NCBI RefSeq assembly: GCF_013376455.1
Contig: NZ_CP045504.1
Location: 3,679,001-3,743,000, forward strand
Source of the DNA: Desulfolutivibrio sulfodismutans DSM 3696
GTDB taxonomy: Bacteria > Desulfobacterota > Desulfovibrionia > Desulfovibrionales > Desulfovibrionaceae
Length of the DNA stretch: 64,000 nt
Direction of reading: 5' to 3'
Shown here: positions 57,470 through 63,615 of the stretch, one piece after another
How positions within the stretch are numbered: position 1 is the first letter of the stretch
Layout: the number at the start of each line of letters is the position of its first letter
The notes under the pieces: model-generated
What the model saw: only the letters and a program-made list of their open reading frames with translations
Told to the model about the DNA's origin: nothing
The model's database searches: none
Position numbers and translations under genes: made by a program

Positions 57470-58393
57470 ATGGACCACGCCGACATCCTTCTGGAATCCG
57501 GCACCAACGAGCTGGAGATCGTCGAGTTCCACGTGCTGGAAGACCTGGGCCACGGCGAGACCCGGGCCCTGGCCTTTGGGGTCAATGTGGCCAAGGTGCT
57601 GGAGATCATCGAAAATCCGGGCCTGTCCCCCTTGTCTTCGGCCCCGCACCCCTGTTTTCTGGGAACCATCCCCTTGCGGGAGCTGGTCCTTCCGGTGCTC
57701 GATCTGGCCGTATGGCTGGATATCACACGGGCGCGCACCCCGGGCGAGGTGGTTCTTGTGACACGCTTCAACTCCCGGACAACGGGATTTCTGGCCTCAG
57801 GGGTGACCCATATTCATCGTGTGGCCTGGAGCAGCGTGGAAGCGCCGCACCGGTTGCTTGGCGGGTGCGTCACCGGGCTTGTGCGCATCGAGGACCACTT
57901 CGTCCAACTGATCGACCTGGAGCGGATCCTTTTTGAACTGGACCCGGTGCCGGACGAGGAGCCTAAGCAGCGGGAAAAACCCGCCCGGACGTATTCGGTG
58001 CTTCTGGCCGAGGACTCGGCGGTCATGCGCCAGATGGTGTTCGAACGGCTCACCGAGGCCGGGTTCCGGGTCATCCTGACCGGGAACGGCGACGAGGCCC
58101 TGACCCTTTTGCGCGCCATGGCGGCCGGGGCGAAGTCTGAAGACCAGCCGGGCGCGGAGCTTCCCGACGTGGTGGTCACGGATGTCGAAATGCCCCAACT
58201 CGACGGCTACACCCTTACCCGCCGGATCAAGGAGGATCCGGACCTTGGCGCGCTGCCCGTGATTTTGTTTTCCTCCCTGGTCAACGAGGATCTGCGCCAC
58301 AAGGGCCGGGCCGTGGGGGCCGACGCCCAGATTTCCAAGCCGGAATTCGGAAGACTGGCCGATGTGGTGCGTGCCCTGATCGAAAAGCGGTGA
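57470..58393 (+). CDS. cheV: CheV-type chemotaxis coupling protein (CheW plus receiver)
   Basis: A 307-residue protein with an N-terminal CheW-like domain (residues about 10-165: FGVNVAKVLEIIENP, LGTIPLRELVLPVLDLAVWL) and a C-terminal receiver (about 178-305: YSVLLAEDSAVMRQMVFERL, with the phospho-acceptor Asp in DVVVTDVEMPQLDGYTLTRR). It couples chemoreceptors to CheA and adjusts signalling by phosphorylation. No other chemotaxis gene lies in the window. It is divergent from the M23 gene with a 388-base gap. Confidence 0.94.
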   Translation: MDHADILLESGTNELEIVEFHVLEDLGHGETRALAFGVNVAKVLEIIENPGLSPLSSAPHPCFLGTIPLRELVLPVLDLAVWLDITRARTPGEVVLVTRFNSRTTGFLASGVTHIHRVAWSSVEAPHRLLGGCVTGLVRIEDHFVQLIDLERILFELDPVPDEEPKQREKPARTYSVLLAEDSAVMRQMVFERLTEAGFRVILTGNGDEALTLLRAMAAGAKSEDQPGAELPDVVVTDVEMPQLDGYTLTRRIKEDPDLGALPVILFSSLVNEDLRHKGRAVGADAQISKPEFGRLADVVRALIEKR

Positions 58394-58508: not shown

Positions 58509-61049
58509 ATGAAATTTCCCCCGGACATTCCCGCGCTCATCACACGGCGTTCGCTCTTTTCCTGGGTGTGGACCAGCAACCTGAAGTTGCAGGGCATCCT
58601 CTTCCTGGTCATCGTGGTCACGGTCGGCGCCCGGGTGCTGCCGCTCGAGATGCAGAAAAAGATCATCAACCAGGCCATCGGGCTGCAAAAGCTCGATCTG
58701 CTCTATATGTATTGCGGCTACTATCTGGCCGCCGTGGTGGCCGCCTCGGGGCTCAAGCTGGTCATCAACACGCTGCAGACCTATATCGGCCAGCAATCCC
58801 TGGCGGATCTGCGCAAAAAGCTCTACGCCCACATCCTGACCATGCCCATGCCCTTTTTCCGCAAGGCCTCCCCGGGCATGGTGGTCCAATCCCTGGTGTC
58901 CGAAGTGGCCAACACCGGCGAGTTCGTCGGCCAGGCCGTGGCCGTGCCGGTGACCAACCTTTTGACCCTGGTGGCCTTCGCCACCTACCTTTTTTACCTC
59001 AATCCGCTCATGGCCGGCATCAGCATGGCCCTGTACCCCGTGGCCATCGTGGTCATCCCGTTTCTGCAAAAGAGGGCCAACGCGGCCAACAAGGAACGGG
59101 TGGACACGGGGCGCAAGCTGTCGACCATGATCGGCGAGACCATCTCGGGCATCCACGAGGTGCATTCCAACGCCAGCTTCAACCTGGAGAACCGGCGTTT
59201 CGGCGGGTTCGTGGACACGCTGTCCCGGGTGCGCGTGGTGTGGAACCTGTATAAGTACGCCATCAAGGTCTCCAACAATTTTTTCCAGAGCCTGGGGCCC
59301 TTCGTGCTCTTTCTGGTGGGCGGCTACCTGGCCATCAACGGCCGTTTCGACCTGGGCGCGCTGGTGGCCTTTCTGTCGGCCAACGAAAAGCTCTACGACC
59401 CCTGGAAGGAGCTGATGGACTTCTATCAGGTCTATCAGGACGCCAAGGTCAGCTACGGCCGGATCATGGAATATTTCGAGGGCGCGCCGGAATTTCCGCT
59501 GACGCCCGAAACGCCGCGTCCGCCCCTGGTCCTGGACGGCAGCGTCAACGTACAGGATCTGGTCATGGAGGTCGCCGGCGGCATCCAGTTGCTCAAGGGC
59601 GTCTCCATGGACATAAGGCCCGGCGAGCAGGTGGCCCTGGTGGGGTATTCCGGGTCCGGGAAGTCCACCCTGGCCCTGTGCATGTGTCAGATCAACAAGT
59701 ACTCCGCCGGGCGGGCCACGCTTTCCGGGTACGACATCGACGCCACTCCCAAAAGCGACATCGCCGACAACATGGGCGTGGTGGCCCAGCATCCCTTCAT
59801 CTTCGAGGGCACCATCCGCGACAACCTGCTTTATTCCATCAACGCCCGGCGCGAGGCGCATGGCATTGAGGGAGAGGAGGGCCTGCCGAGCCTGGACCGC
59901 ATCATCGAGACCATCCAGCAGGTGGGGCTTTTCCAGGATGTGCTCAGGTTCGGATTGAATACGGTCTTCAAGAAGGGGCGCAAGGAAAACCTGGTTAAGA
60001 AGATCATCCACATCCGCGAGAACTATTACCAGGAGCAGGGCGAGATCCTCAAAGACATCGTGGAGTTCTTCGATGTCGACAAGTATCTCTATTACAGCCC
60101 GGTTTCGGCCAACATCCTCTTCGGCAACCCCAACCGGGACGACTATCAGCCGGAGAATCTGGCGAACAACCAGGTGTTCCTGGAATTTCTGCGCGAGGCC
60201 GGGCTGCGGCAGCTTTTGGTGCAGTTGGGACGGGAGTTGGCGGCCCAGACCGTGGACATCTTGAAAAACGTACCCTCCCCGGATGCCAGCTTTTTTGAGC
60301 AGTCCCCGGTCGGGGCGGACGAATTCGCCGCCTATTCCGAGCTGACGACCCACCTGGAGCGGGTCAAGATCCACGAGATCAGTCCCGATGAGGAGCGCCT
60401 GCTTTTGACCCTGGCCCTGCGCTTCACCCCCGGCCGCCACAAGATCGTGGGGCTGTCCAGGCTTTCCGAGGAGCTTTTGCTGCAAGGCCGGGCGCTTTTC
60501 ATGGACAGGACCGGCAAGTCCGACCCCGAGGCCGTGACGTTTTACCGCCGCGAGGATTTCATCCATTCCCAGACGATCATGGACAACATCCTCTTCGGCC
60601 GCATCCGCACCGACAACCCCAAGGCCCTGGACCAGATCAACAAGACCATCGTCAGCCTGCTCATCCAGGAGGACATGCTGGAGCGCATCGTGGAGCTGGG
60701 TCTGGATTTCCATGTGGGCTCCTCGGGCGACCGCCTGTCCGGCGGCCAACGCTCGAAGGTGGCCCTGGCCCGGGCCTTCCTCAAGGAGCCGCCGCTTTTG
60801 ATCCTCGACGAGGCCACGGCGGCCCTGGACAACGCCTCCCAGACCCGCATCCAGAACCTGCTGGAATCCAAGTGGAAGGGCAAAAGCACGGTGGTGTCCG
60901 TGGTTCACCGCCTGGACACCATCAAGGGGTTCGACAAGGTGGCGGTGATGAAGGCCGGACGTATCGTGGAATGCGCCTCCTACAATGAACTCATGGACAA
61001 AAAGGGGATGCTCTATGAACTCGTCCACGGAACATCAGGACGCAAGTGA
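58509..61049 (+). CDS. ABC exporter half-transporter with enlarged nucleotide-binding domain
   Basis: An 846-residue exporter-type ABC protein. The membrane domain (1-310) has six helices. In the nucleotide-binding domain Walker A is GYSGSGKST (379-387), Q-loop Gln427, signature LSGGQ 743-747, Walker B LLILDEAT 763-770, H-loop His800. The distance between Walker A and signature is about 355 residues instead of the usual 100-120. The extra part contains three similar segments: FEGTIRDNLLYSI (432-444), SPVSANILFGNP (530-541) and SQTIMDNILFGRI (687-699), each followed by a helical stretch, as if the Q-loop-plus-helical unit was copied twice. The catalytic residues are intact. It overlaps by 35 bases a cNMP-binding protein. 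Substrate unknown; lipid or drug export is the usual role. Confidence 0.9.
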   Translation: MKFPPDIPALITRRSLFSWVWTSNLKLQGILFLVIVVTVGARVLPLEMQKKIINQAIGLQKLDLLYMYCGYYLAAVVAASGLKLVINTLQTYIGQQSLADLRKKLYAHILTMPMPFFRKASPGMVVQSLVSEVANTGEFVGQAVAVPVTNLLTLVAFATYLFYLNPLMAGISMALYPVAIVVIPFLQKRANAANKERVDTGRKLSTMIGETISGIHEVHSNASFNLENRRFGGFVDTLSRVRVVWNLYKYAIKVSNNFFQSLGPFVLFLVGGYLAINGRFDLGALVAFLSANEKLYDPWKELMDFYQVYQDAKVSYGRIMEYFEGAPEFPLTPETPRPPLVLDGSVNVQDLVMEVAGGIQLLKGVSMDIRPGEQVALVGYSGSGKSTLALCMCQINKYSAGRATLSGYDIDATPKSDIADNMGVVAQHPFIFEGTIRDNLLYSINARREAHGIEGEEGLPSLDRIIETIQQVGLFQDVLRFGLNTVFKKGRKENLVKKIIHIRENYYQEQGEILKDIVEFFDVDKYLYYSPVSANILFGNPNRDDYQPENLANNQVFLEFLREAGLRQLLVQLGRELAAQTVDILKNVPSPDASFFEQSPVGADEFAAYSELTTHLERVKIHEISPDEERLLLTLALRFTPGRHKIVGLSRLSEELLLQGRALFMDRTGKSDPEAVTFYRREDFIHSQTIMDNILFGRIRTDNPKALDQINKTIVSLLIQEDMLERIVELGLDFHVGSSGDRLSGGQRSKVALARAFLKEPPLLILDEATAALDNASQTRIQNLLESKWKGKSTVVSVVHRLDTIKGFDKVAVMKAGRIVECASYNELMDKKGMLYELVHGTSGRK

Positions 61050-61548
61050 CGGAGCCTGCGGGTTCACCACCCACCTGGACATCCTGCGGGAGATGCCGAT
61101 ATTCACCGGCATGTCCCTGGATGTGCTCAAGGTGTTGGCCTATTTGAGCAGCAATGAGACCTATCGCGACGGGGACCGGCTGTGCGTGCAGGGGGAGATG
61201 TTCGACAACTGCCGCTCTATCACCATGGGCCGGGTGGAGATCCTGCGCGCCCCGGAGGGCGGCACGCCTGTGGTGGTCGGGACGGCGGGCGGCGGCTGGG
61301 CCTTCGGCGGGCTGGCCCTTTTGACCCACGTCAAATCCCTGTATACCATCCGGGCCAAAGGCGATGTGGAGTGCCTGGTGCTTTCCAGGGAAAAATTTCA
61401 AAAGGCGGCCGAGCGGTTTCCCCAAATGTTGCCGAGGGTTTTACACGTCGTCGTCGAGCACATGTTCTCGTGGGAGGCCAAGGTGCTGTCTTCCCTTGAG
61501 CGCAACACGGCCACACCGGAAGAGGTTCACGGCCTGACGCTGTTTTAG
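61015..61548 (+). CDS. Cyclic nucleotide-binding-domain protein, partner of the ABC exporter
   Basis: A 177-residue protein with a cNMP-binding fold: REMPIFTGMSLDVLKVLAYL, YRDGDRLCVQGEMFDNC and GGGWAFGGLALLTHVKSLYTI (the phosphate-binding cassette position). The usual RxA arginine of cAMP binders is not obvious, so the ligand may be another molecule or none. No DNA-binding domain follows, so it is not a CRP-type regulator. The start codon lies 35 bases inside the exporter gene, which indicates translational coupling and a possible regulatory subunit of the exporter. Confidence 0.85.
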   Translation: MNSSTEHQDASDGACGFTTHLDILREMPIFTGMSLDVLKVLAYLSSNETYRDGDRLCVQGEMFDNCRSITMGRVEILRAPEGGTPVVVGTAGGGWAFGGLALLTHVKSLYTIRAKGDVECLVLSREKFQKAAERFPQMLPRVLHVVVEHMFSWEAKVLSSLERNTATPEEVHGLTLF

Positions 61549-61699: not shown

Positions 61700-62158
61700 A
61701 TGAGCGCAGACAACAAAGACCCCCTTGTCGTTTTTGCCGACTTCGTCGCCAAAAAACGGCTCAAGATGACCCCCCAGCGCAGGCACATTCTTGAGGTGTT
61801 CCTGAACTCCGAGGGGCATCTGACGGCTGAGGAACTCTACCGCAAGGTGAAGGACGCCAATCCCTTCATCGGCCAGGCCACGGTTTACCGGACGGTGAAG
61901 CTTTTGGCCGATTCGGGGCTGGCCAAGGGCGTGGAATTCGGGGATGGCGTGGTCCGCTACGAGGTCAAATACGGGCAGACCCACCATGACCACCTGATCT
62001 GCGAGCGGTGCGGCCGCAACGTGGAGGTGGTCAACGCGGACATCGAGAAGCTCCAGGAGGAGGTGGCCGCGCGCCACGGCTTCGTGCTCACCGGGCACAA
62101 GCTTTATCTCTACGGCGTGTGCCCGGAGTGCCGCAAGGCCGACCCGACCATCGGCTAG
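61700..62158 (+). CDS. Fur-family metal or peroxide regulator
   Basis: A 152-residue Fur-family repressor. The DNA-binding half has RLKMTPQRRHILEVFLNSEG and FIGQATVYRTVKLLADSGL; the dimer/metal half has YGQTHHDHLICERCGRNVEV (the HHDH metal site and first Cys pair) and GVCPECRKAD (second Cys pair, structural zinc). It could be Fur, PerR or Zur; key residues do not settle which. GGTGGGAGT lies before the ATG. It is monocistronic between an upstream hairpin and a 270-base spacer. Confidence 0.93.
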   Translation: MSADNKDPLVVFADFVAKKRLKMTPQRRHILEVFLNSEGHLTAEELYRKVKDANPFIGQATVYRTVKLLADSGLAKGVEFGDGVVRYEVKYGQTHHDHLICERCGRNVEVVNADIEKLQEEVAARHGFVLTGHKLYLYGVCPECRKADPTIG

Positions 62159-62430
62159 CATTGCACGTTCCGCTCTGGCGCGCACGCCGCAACGCCTTGA
62201 GTGTCTGTTTTTTTGTGAACGCCACGCGGGCGCGCGTCTCTTGAAAATTCGCTCGTATTTTTACGGGAAAAGAACTCTTTCAACTTGTTGTTTCCAAACT
62301 TCGGTGCGCCGGTCTTGGGGGCGCGACACGAGCGGTGCAGCTGTCGCGGCGGGGTGTCGACGCCGTGGCCATGAGGCAATGACGGACGTGAGGCGACGTC
62401 GGCATGGCGGATCGCCAGGGAGAGAAGGAA

Positions 62431-63615
62431 ATGCGCCTGCGCCACAGCCGGGTTCTCCTGGCGGCCATCGCCATATGTCTGGCCTTCGCCACGGTTTCCC
62501 GGGCCGGGGACGCCCCGCTGGTCTTCGGCCTTTTGCTCGTCGGACCTTACAACGACAAGGGCTACAGCCAGGCCCAGTACGAGGGCGGCCGGTATGTCGA
62601 GGCCAAGCTGCCCGGGTCCAGGATGATCTATCTGGACCAGGTCAATCCCACGGATCGTCCCGGGATGACCATCCCCCAGGCCGTGGACGACATGGCGGCC
62701 AAGGGCGCGCGGCTGGTCATCGCCGGTTCCGAGGACATGCGTGACGGCATTCTGGAGGCCGCCGTCCGGCATCCGGAGATGACCTTCCTCCATGTCTCCG
62801 GCGACGACGTGCTGACGGGCAAGGCCCCGAAAAACCTGGGCAACCTGTTCGCCAAGATCGAATACGGCAAGATGATGGCCGGATTCGCCGCAGCCATGAC
62901 CACCAAGACGGGAAAAATCGGCTACCTGGGACCGCTGGTCAACGACGAGACGAGGCGCGTGGCCAACGCCGCCTACCTTGGGGCGCGTTACGCCTGGGAG
63001 CATGTGCGCGGCAAAAAACCCGAGGAACTGACCTTCAAGGTGAGCTGGATCGGGTTCTGGTTCAACATCCCCGGGGTGACCGCCGACCCCAACCAGATGG
63101 CCGGGGCCTTTTTCGACCAGGGCTTCGACGTGGTCATCTCCGGCCTGGACGCCCCCGAGGCCCTGACCGTGGCCGCTGCCCGCCGCGAGGCCGGGGCCGA
63201 CGCGTACGCCCTGCCCTACGTCTACAAACCGGCCTGCCAGCTTGCCCCCGAGGCCTGCCTGGGGGTGCCCTATTTCAACTGGGGGCCGCCGTTTCTGATC
63301 ATCGCCCGGCAGGTGGCCGCCGGAACCTACCAGCCCGCCTTCGCCTGGCTGACGCCGGATTTCGCGGACATGAACGATGCGGACAAAAGTCCGGTGGGCT
63401 TTCTGCCTGGCCCGGCCCTTTCGGCGGAAAACAGGAAATACCTGGACATCTTCTCGGCCGCCCTGGGCTCTGGGGCCGTGGACCTGTACGCCGGGCCCCT
63501 GGACTACCAGGACGGCACGGTGTTCGTTCCAGCCGGGCGCACGGCCACGGAAAAGGAACAGTGGTATTGCCCGCAGCTTCTTCGCGGCATGCAGGGCCAA
63601 AGCGCCGCCAAGTAG
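62431..63615 (+). CDS. BMP-family ABC substrate-binding protein
   Basis: A 394-residue periplasmic-binding protein of the basic membrane protein (BMP/PnrA-like) family, which usually binds nucleosides or purines. The signal peptide is RVLLAAIAICLAFATVSRAG. The mature part has FGLLLVGPYNDKGYSQAQYE, LVIAGSEDMRDGILEAA, FLHVSGDD and KIGYLGPLVND. The Cys typical of a lipobox is absent, so it is soluble. GAGAAGGAA precedes the ATG at 62431. No ATPase or permease gene follows in the window, so it may be an orphan or have partners past the right edge. Confidence 0.87.
   Translation: MRLRHSRVLLAAIAICLAFATVSRAGDAPLVFGLLLVGPYNDKGYSQAQYEGGRYVEAKLPGSRMIYLDQVNPTDRPGMTIPQAVDDMAAKGARLVIAGSEDMRDGILEAAVRHPEMTFLHVSGDDVLTGKAPKNLGNLFAKIEYGKMMAGFAAAMTTKTGKIGYLGPLVNDETRRVANAAYLGARYAWEHVRGKKPEELTFKVSWIGFWFNIPGVTADPNQMAGAFFDQGFDVVISGLDAPEALTVAAARREAGADAYALPYVYKPACQLAPEACLGVPYFNWGPPFLIIARQVAAGTYQPAFAWLTPDFADMNDADKSPVGFLPGPALSAENRKYLDIFSAALGSGAVDLYAGPLDYQDGTVFVPAGRTATEKEQWYCPQLLRGMQGQSAAK

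Follow-up and report, generated by a model that had tools for sequence, protein, structure and literature searches.

How does the ATPase core of an ATP-binding cassette (ABC) exporter come to carry some 260 extra residues between its Walker A and signature motifs, and what has become of an ATPase built in this way? The question is raised by a gene at 58509..61049 of a 64,000-nucleotide stretch of the Desulfolutivibrio sulfodismutans DSM 3696 genome, referred to here as the window (assembly GCF_013376455.1, contig NZ_CP045504.1, forward-strand positions 3,679,001 to 3,743,000). All window features with coordinates given below lie on the + strand, unless stated otherwise. The open reading frame (ORF) was correctly delimited in the initial annotation, and encodes an ABC exporter-type protein of 846 amino acids, in which a membrane domain is followed by an ATPase domain bearing the 260-residue insert; its start codon is common to the near relatives whose sequences were compared. 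Segments of ABC transporter ATPase cores are regarded as fixed by the catalytic cycle. Comparisons across the family show that the Q-loop-to-signature segment has been duplicated twice, to give three modules of the form strand, helix (N-x-x-F/Y-G), helices; and that the key residues of the repeat have outlived the ATPase itself in one large clade.

In the window exporter 358 residues separate the Walker A lysine (K385) from the start of the signature (L743). The corresponding spacing is 97–98 residues in 29 of 29 measurable ordinary exporters of Desulfobacterota, from a control set of 31 loci, chosen as the top scorers among 70 ordinary matches (two family members having been removed from 72); any weaker-scoring exporters with odd spacing would lie outside this set. 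Across the family the spacing is 351–378 residues in 56 sequences with an intact ATPase and 354–467 in 67 sequences with a degenerate one. The initial annotation was therefore right that the distance, which it put at about 355 residues, is excessive, though its figure of 240 for the excess was too low.

The added sequence was also claimed to be non-random, and to consist of three similar segments arising from two in-frame duplications of the Q-loop/helical element. Copy 1 (S1, residues 421–492; 59769..59984) is the canonical Q-loop strand and first helical segment, with N439 and Y442. Copy 2 (S2, residues 515–600; 60051..60308) has the strand VEFF and the helix PVSANILFG, in which N535 is invariant and F538 and G539 nearly so. 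Copy 3 (S3, residues 673–742; 60525..60734), with strand VTFY, helix TIMDNILFG and invariant N693 and G697, runs directly into LSGGQ, so that it is indeed the last copy that is joined to the signature. The positions originally assigned to PVSANILFG (531–539) and TIMDNILFG (689–697) are accurate, but GTIRDNLLY occupies residues 434–442, one below those first given. Long connecting helices, identified from the model described below together with the alignment, precede copy 2 (residues 493–510, with invariant R503; 59985..60038) and copy 3 (residues 651–671, with invariant R661; 60459..60521). Between copy 2 and the second of these lies a helical linker (residues 601–650; 60309..60458), which from residue 637 onwards is the counterpart, at an offset of 158, of the sequence from residue 479 onwards.

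Profiles for S1 (421–492), S2 (515–600) and S3 (673–748) were built from 102 distinct members (103 rows, the window being present twice). They align with one another by hhalign with E-values of 2e-8 (S1-S2), 3e-9 (S1-S3) and 3e-15 (S2-S3), so that the segment-against-segment comparison proposed at the outset reveals similarity well above chance. Each clade on its own gives a comparable outcome: 8e-9, 2e-7 and 1e-15, in the same order, for the degenerate clade, and 3e-6, 1e-6 and 1e-10 for the intact clade. With 25 Desulfobacterota-type sequences the values were weaker (1.1e-4, 7e-5 and 4e-7). When 1081 non-overlapping pairs of 75-residue stretches were compared, the top 24 all joined stretches within 460–594 to stretches within 610–759, and S1-S3 ranked 25th. 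A profile of the Q-loop-to-signature segment of 29 ordinary exporters matched S1 (8.6e-17), S2 (5.4e-7, score 35.0) and S3 (2.1e-8), while the best score among 36 stretches outside the region was 13.4 (E 0.036); the linker stretch 575–650 did not match this profile (score 11.1). In a gapless self-comparison of 123 sequences over 210 offsets (60–269), offset 158, which pairs residues 479–574 with 637–732, came top at 17.7% mean identity, against 10.5% for the next-best offset and a median of 6.9% (standard deviation 1.3).

Certain residues are conserved without exception. R503, N535 and F538 and their counterparts R661, N693 and F696 are invariant in a 41-row alignment of the insert; all 119 distinct members keep R503, N535, R661, N693 and G697, and 118 keep N439 of copy 1. 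These results support the derivation of copies 2 and 3 from the Q-loop/first helical segment, as the sequence profiles and the offset indicate. Copies 2 and 3 are closest to each other, and both are preceded by a long helix with an invariant arginine, which copy 1 lacks; this is what two successive in-frame duplications would produce. The two extra copies are very old, and no intermediate with a single extra copy was seen in the phylum-level genome samples.

The insert is expected to leave the core of the protein in place. An AlphaFold2 model of the window protein, made from 24 aligned sequences, has a mean predicted local distance difference test (pLDDT) score of 81.6 and a predicted template-modelling score of 0.71; ten-residue blocks of the insert score 75–94, with one at 69. 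A homologue of 48% identity, modelled with the same sequence set, has a mean pLDDT of 79.9. Both models repeat one order of elements, namely long helix, short strand, short helix, short strand and helices, with the long helix at 493–510 and 651–671, the short strand at 518–520 and 676–678, and the short N-x-x-F-G helix at 532–537 and 690–695. That the core is predicted to be undisturbed follows from alignment of the window model with the ATPase domain of TAP1 (251 residues at 2.4 A, Z 31.0) and with whole exporters (P-glycoprotein, MsbA and TAP; Z about 31), so that on prediction the protein has the exporter fold. ABC transporters were among the best 50 matches in each structure search made with the whole-protein models. 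A search of PDB sequences with the insert profile gave weak matches of copy 3 to ordinary exporters (best 3.9e-4) and chance matches.

The window exporter retains every ATPase motif. By motif alignment, Walker A (GYSGSGKST) occupies residues 379–387 (59643..59669), the Q-loop glutamine is Q427, the signature LSGGQ is at residues 743–747 (60735..60749), Walker B (LLILDE) at 763–768 (60795..60812) and the H-loop histidine is H800 (60906..60908). The transmembrane domain covers about residues 10–330 (58536..59498), as judged from the modelled helices and from PF00664, which matches residues 31–290 (E 1.2e-27) with 97.7 bits against a cut-off of 28; the ATPase domain, represented in the ABC exporter superfamily by PF00005, is split by Pfam into two stretches.

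These motifs are intact in only 53 of 119 distinct members and broken in the other 66, none of which is from Desulfobacterota. When sequences were divided 45 to 57 by the better-fitting query, rather than by motif, all motifs proved to be kept in 45 of 45 Desulfobacterota-type sequences and in none of the 57 alphaproteobacterial-type sequences. Within the 66 broken members the Walker A lysine is retained in 26, the following Ser/Thr in 6, the Q-loop glutamine in 11, the Walker B aspartate in 13, the Walker B glutamate in 20 and the H-loop histidine in 14; Walker A, Walker B, H-loop and signature are all broken together in 49. The Walker A Ser/Thr is replaced by Glu or Asp in 41 of the 57 alphaproteobacterial-type sequences. 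Database records call several proteins of this clade ATP-binding, a label that the clade's sequences do not support. Mean pairwise identity in the intact clade is 59% for the membrane domain, 53–69% for the ATPase cores and 39–42% for the repeat cores (residues 491–545 and 648–700); in the degenerate clade the respective values are 50%, 34–37% and 40%. Identity of the ATPase cores thus falls between clades while that of the repeat cores stays at about 40%, and it follows that constraint on the ATPase has been relaxed and the repeat cores have been held level. The level itself is modest, and it is the few invariant residues that stand out.

In a quick tree of the membrane domain, with an unresolved root and two long-branch outgroup rows, a branch with SH-aLRT support of 100 sets 62 degenerate rows apart, and another, with support of 93, does the same for 55 intact rows. 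Outside this group of 55 falls L118, an intact member from Desulfobacterota; and elsewhere, on very long branches, lie five divergent rows (L200–L203 and L205) in which Walker A, signature and Walker B are destroyed and the membrane domain too has strongly diverged. Compared with the other 62 degenerate rows, these five show 40.6% and 39.8% identity in the two repeat cores, 17.0% in the membrane domain and 24.3% in the C-terminal ATPase core. The initial annotation had supposed that duplicating the element by which the ATPase is coupled to the membrane domain would change the gating of the transporter. To judge from the motifs, altered coupling cannot be the whole role of the repeat, because one large clade has lost the catalytic residues and yet kept the key residues of the repeat.

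The exporter gene overlaps at its 3' end a second gene (60985..61548), which encodes a single-domain cyclic-nucleotide-binding (CNB) protein of 187 amino acids from this start, with PF00027 at residues 59–144 (E 7.9e-14, 51.8 bits against a cut-off of 27.5). It also has a weak match to the CNB portion of the family 2B encapsulins, at 41 bits (E 1.1e-10) against a cut-off of 400. Using a CNB model built from three family partners, a CNB domain was found in the same strand less than 400 bases from the exporter end in 88 of 102 distinct members, fused C-terminally to the exporter in six (L094, L101, L102, L142, L143 and L145) and near it in two; four had none, meaning no CNB domain within the 1.5–3 kb beyond the exporter, and two left no room for one. 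Another 21 loci, which include copies of some already counted, had CNB adjacent in 16 cases, and the five without it were the divergent subgroup. A CNB match was absent from all 31 ordinary exporter loci (at least 570 downstream bases in the 29 measured). The insert is therefore conserved with its CNB partner at nearly all loci, the association that the initial annotation had suggested examining, although nine members keep the insert with no CNB partner at the gene end.

The phosphate-binding cassette of cyclic-nucleotide-binding proteins contacts the cyclic phosphate through a glutamate and an arginine. In an alignment of 96 partners both residues are kept in 48 of 54 from the degenerate clade, against 1 of 42 from the intact clade, where the glutamate is mostly replaced by Gly (28) or Ala (8). 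The window partner conforms to this, its cassette GGLALLTHVKSLYTI (61306..61350) being degenerate, with Gly for the canonical Glu and Ser for the Arg. Decay of the ATPase and decay of the CNB site are reciprocal between clades, since Glu and Arg are retained where the ATPase is dead and lost where it is intact. The sole intact-clade partner with both residues is that of L118, whose ATPase motifs are intact too, and L118 may accordingly preserve an ancestral state in which motor and sensor were both functional.

In exporters the helical subdomain of the ATPase adjoins the docking site of the membrane domain's coupling helices. We lean towards a reading in which the window protein is an ATP-driven homodimeric exporter, whose two added modules would sit on the helical subdomain, beside this docking site, and would form a permanent platform in the cytosol for coupling and docking, through which the state of the CNB subunit is relayed to the membrane domain; signals would thereby pass between the membrane domain, the ATPase and the CNB protein. 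The Pseudomonadota clade would have kept this platform and, one divergent subgroup excepted, the membrane domain, and would have dropped the use of ATP, so that control by a CNB ligand has probably replaced control by ATP. For the window protein itself, its residues lead us to expect ATP-driven export and a CNB subunit whose ability to sense a cyclic nucleotide has been lost. Several observations weigh against a relay platform. The insert as a whole is the least conserved part of the protein in the intact clade, where only single residues of it are invariant and mean pairwise identity is 39–43% for segments 491–735, the ATPase cores reaching 53–69% and the membrane domain 59%; the window CNB domain has Gly and Ser in place of the cassette Glu and Arg; and no CNB partner was detected for nine members that carry the insert (L128, L115, L073, L093, L200, L201, L202, L203 and L205), L203 having a different CNB gene 1.4 kb away.

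It could be argued that the repeat is a matter of chance, strings such as NILFG being a common motif and the insert an unrelated helical domain. No Pfam model describes the insert (five families each match one of 41 members, best E 0.045), and in the window protein alone copies 2 and 3 have low identity, 17 of 96 residues being identical at offset 158 and 15 at offset 197, a lead so small that the case for a repeat rests on the family. Across the family, however, the profile matches, the offset obtained from 123 sequences, the similarity of copy 2 to the Q-loop segments of ordinary exporters and the equally spaced invariant Arg and Asn pairs contradict this explanation, which we reject as very improbable. 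Even less credible is the idea that the degenerate members are decaying pseudogenes: it would account for the failure of all 57 alphaproteobacterial-type sequences to keep the full set of motifs, but no stops occur within the matches listed, the membrane domain remains 50% identical within the clade where the ATPase cores have fallen to 34–37%, and the repeat residues are invariant. Exporters with one degenerate half are well known, as excerpts of PMC7756269 recount, and dead-ATPase members might similarly pair with an ordinary ABC exporter encoded elsewhere, in the manner of TM287/288 or TAP. We consider this unlikely, given that Walker A, Walker B, H-loop and signature residues are missing together from 49 of the 66, and that in the 14 largest clusters of neighbouring genes (97 loci, 47 of them degenerate-type) no example was ABC-like, though several examples look like opposite-strand frames.

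Two further proposals are harder to dismiss, and of each we remain doubtful while granting it some weight. One is that binding of the CNB partner is the main purpose of the extra copies, with exporter and partner joined in a single regulated complex. The CNB gene would then be expected to accompany the exporter, as it does in 96 of 102 members (next to it, fused to it or near it), with both parts on one chain in the six fusions; but the nine members without CNB at the gene end retain the insert, the five most decayed included, and docking of CNB is therefore not its sole job. The other proposal, tentative at best, would make the whole family an ABC pump turned into a ligand-controlled, ATP-independent device, descended from an ancestor with both an active ATPase and a sensor, of which Desulfobacterota kept the motor and Pseudomonadota the sensor. 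The membrane domain in Pseudomonadota would then act, under gating by cyclic nucleotide, as a passive glycolipid flippase, channel or receptor, and the triplicated Q-loop segment would be the transmission that both lineages need, with the ancestral pair still to be seen in L118. One coupling element of an ATPase has here been copied twice, and the key residues of the copies have outlasted the ATPase in a clade represented in 57 of 190 sampled alphaproteobacterial genomes and on rhizobial plasmids. The natural pairs that result, with motor intact or dead and sensor intact or degenerate, could help to tell apart the contributions of ATP use, coupling and ligand control within an exporter fold.

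Type IV (ABCB/MsbA-like) exporters such as MsbA, TAP1 and Sav1866 have the membrane domain, the ATPase core fold and all the motifs in common with the window protein, but differ in spacing (97–98 residues rather than 358), in having one rather than three copies of the post-Q-loop segment and in having no CNB partner gene. The window exporter scores 283 bits with the MsbA model TIGR02203, well below the curated cut-off of 602, and no subfamily cut-off was reached in the best 25 of 192 NCBIfam models for the window protein or the best 25 of 153 for a rhizobial member. HetC of Nostoc also operates with a CNB domain: according to excerpts of PMC10986499 it is a peptidase-containing ABC exporter whose N-terminal CNB domain is needed for function and binds ppGpp in vitro. 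The window exporter differs in that its CNB domain is encoded by a gene of its own downstream (at the C-terminus in the fused members), and in lacking the C39 peptidase of such peptidase-containing transporters, no peptidase family appearing in a Pfam scan of the exporter up to E 1. TM287/288, TAP, ABCC1 and Pdr5, named in the same excerpts of PMC7756269 as exporters with one degenerate nucleotide-binding site, resemble the degenerate clade in having lost catalytic residues within an otherwise conserved exporter. In those exporters a single site of the two has been lost and its counterpart still works. Of the two clades described here, that of the window is intact, and in the other a majority of members have lost Walker A, Walker B and signature residues on one chain.

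Fusions of CNB domains to major facilitator superfamily transporters are mentioned in part of PMC10710835. MsbA2 of Sinorhizobium meliloti, as described in portions of PMC3687685 and PMC12239276, is an exporter encoded close to glycosyltransferase genes, in which respect it recalls the degenerate clade. It is not a member of the family: the 597-amino-acid ORF equated with msbA2 from the coordinates in PMC3687685 is of ordinary length, and its lone match to the family's S. meliloti member extends over about 110 residues at 32% identity, with no homology to the insert. A rhizobial CNB partner matches TIGR03896, which describes CNB proteins tied to bacteriocin-type ABC export (E 3.3e-10), but at 39.8 bits falls far under the cut-off of 161. 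The PADLOC model mad3 matches the window exporter (E 6.9e-31), its best stretch lying in the generic ATPase part. The titles and abstract openings of open-licence literature, a scope that leaves subscription papers outside, contain no account of an exporter family with a triplicated segment, and within that scope no prior description of this conserved exporter-like family was found.

The family was found in Desulfobacterota and Alphaproteobacteria. Before counting, 13 of 143 loci with proteins shorter than 700 amino acids were dropped (fragments and ordinary exporters); the remaining 130 gave 102 on merging identical proteins, with the window counted once, and merging members of 99% identity reduced 123 to 119. 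Full-length relatives were present at E 1e-60 in 11 of 39 near genomes, a count that includes the genome of the window itself. In genome contigs, 27 of 32 distinct loci were full-length relatives, among them Desulfovibrio, Solidesulfovibrio, Desulfacinum and Syntrophobacteraceae. In the window's phylum 9 of 148 genomes matched in one sample and 21 of 297 in another, one of the latter in the copy-3 part only; a further sample (14 of 247) was again of this phylum, at the same places, and adds no breadth. Matches were obtained in 57 of 190 genomes from the class of the Parasphingopyxis locus, which we take to be Alphaproteobacteria, and in 32 of 349 from its phylum, six of these in the copy-3 part only. 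The copy-3-only matches in the samples of 297 and 349 lie in ordinary frames of 610–656 amino acids, the other matches spanning the insert wholly or for the most part. Among 119 genomes from the phylum to which a Clostridia locus belongs, one matched, again in the copy-3 part only and in a frame of 592 amino acids. Beyond these phyla, sampling covered five single genomes and two more. Among plasmid records, 246 matched when the window insert was the query and 262 when a rhizobial member was used, Rhizobium and Sinorhizobium predominating. The alphaproteobacterial genome G344 houses three paralogues of the degenerate CNB-fused form (L101, L102 and L143), and genome G481 has two matches, of which one was looked at. 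In L037, from a Desulfovibrio metagenome-assembled genome, the exporter gene is split into two pieces that overlap but are read in different frames, with undetermined sequence separating them; this may be an assembly fault.

The genes surrounding the exporter differ between clades. At 47 degenerate-clade loci, two clusters of glycosyltransferase genes occur in 27 and 22 cases, mostly upstream and on the opposite strand. These neighbours encode GT28-like and group 1 enzymes and are often divergently oriented (as at L062:1071-3454 and L147:2865-4889); rhizobial members of both clusters, checked by BLAST, carry PF04101 and PF00534. They offer a hint of a role connected with glycolipid or polysaccharide in this clade. 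At 50 intact-clade loci, a STAS-domain gene was nearby in 27, a HATPase_c_2 gene in 19, and both in 18. Together these resemble an anti-anti-sigma/anti-sigma-kinase-type pair (for example L030:6890-7234 and L020:3967-4410), which suggests a partner-switching regulatory link with the exporter-CNB pair. In the window, the STAS and HATPase_c_2 genes are both missing near the exporter. Immediately upstream of it lies a gene for a CheV-like protein comprising CheW and response regulator domains (57470-58393, strand not specified), and downstream are genes for a Fur-family regulator (61700-62158) and a Bmp-type substrate-binding protein (62404-63615), for both of which the strand is likewise not specified.

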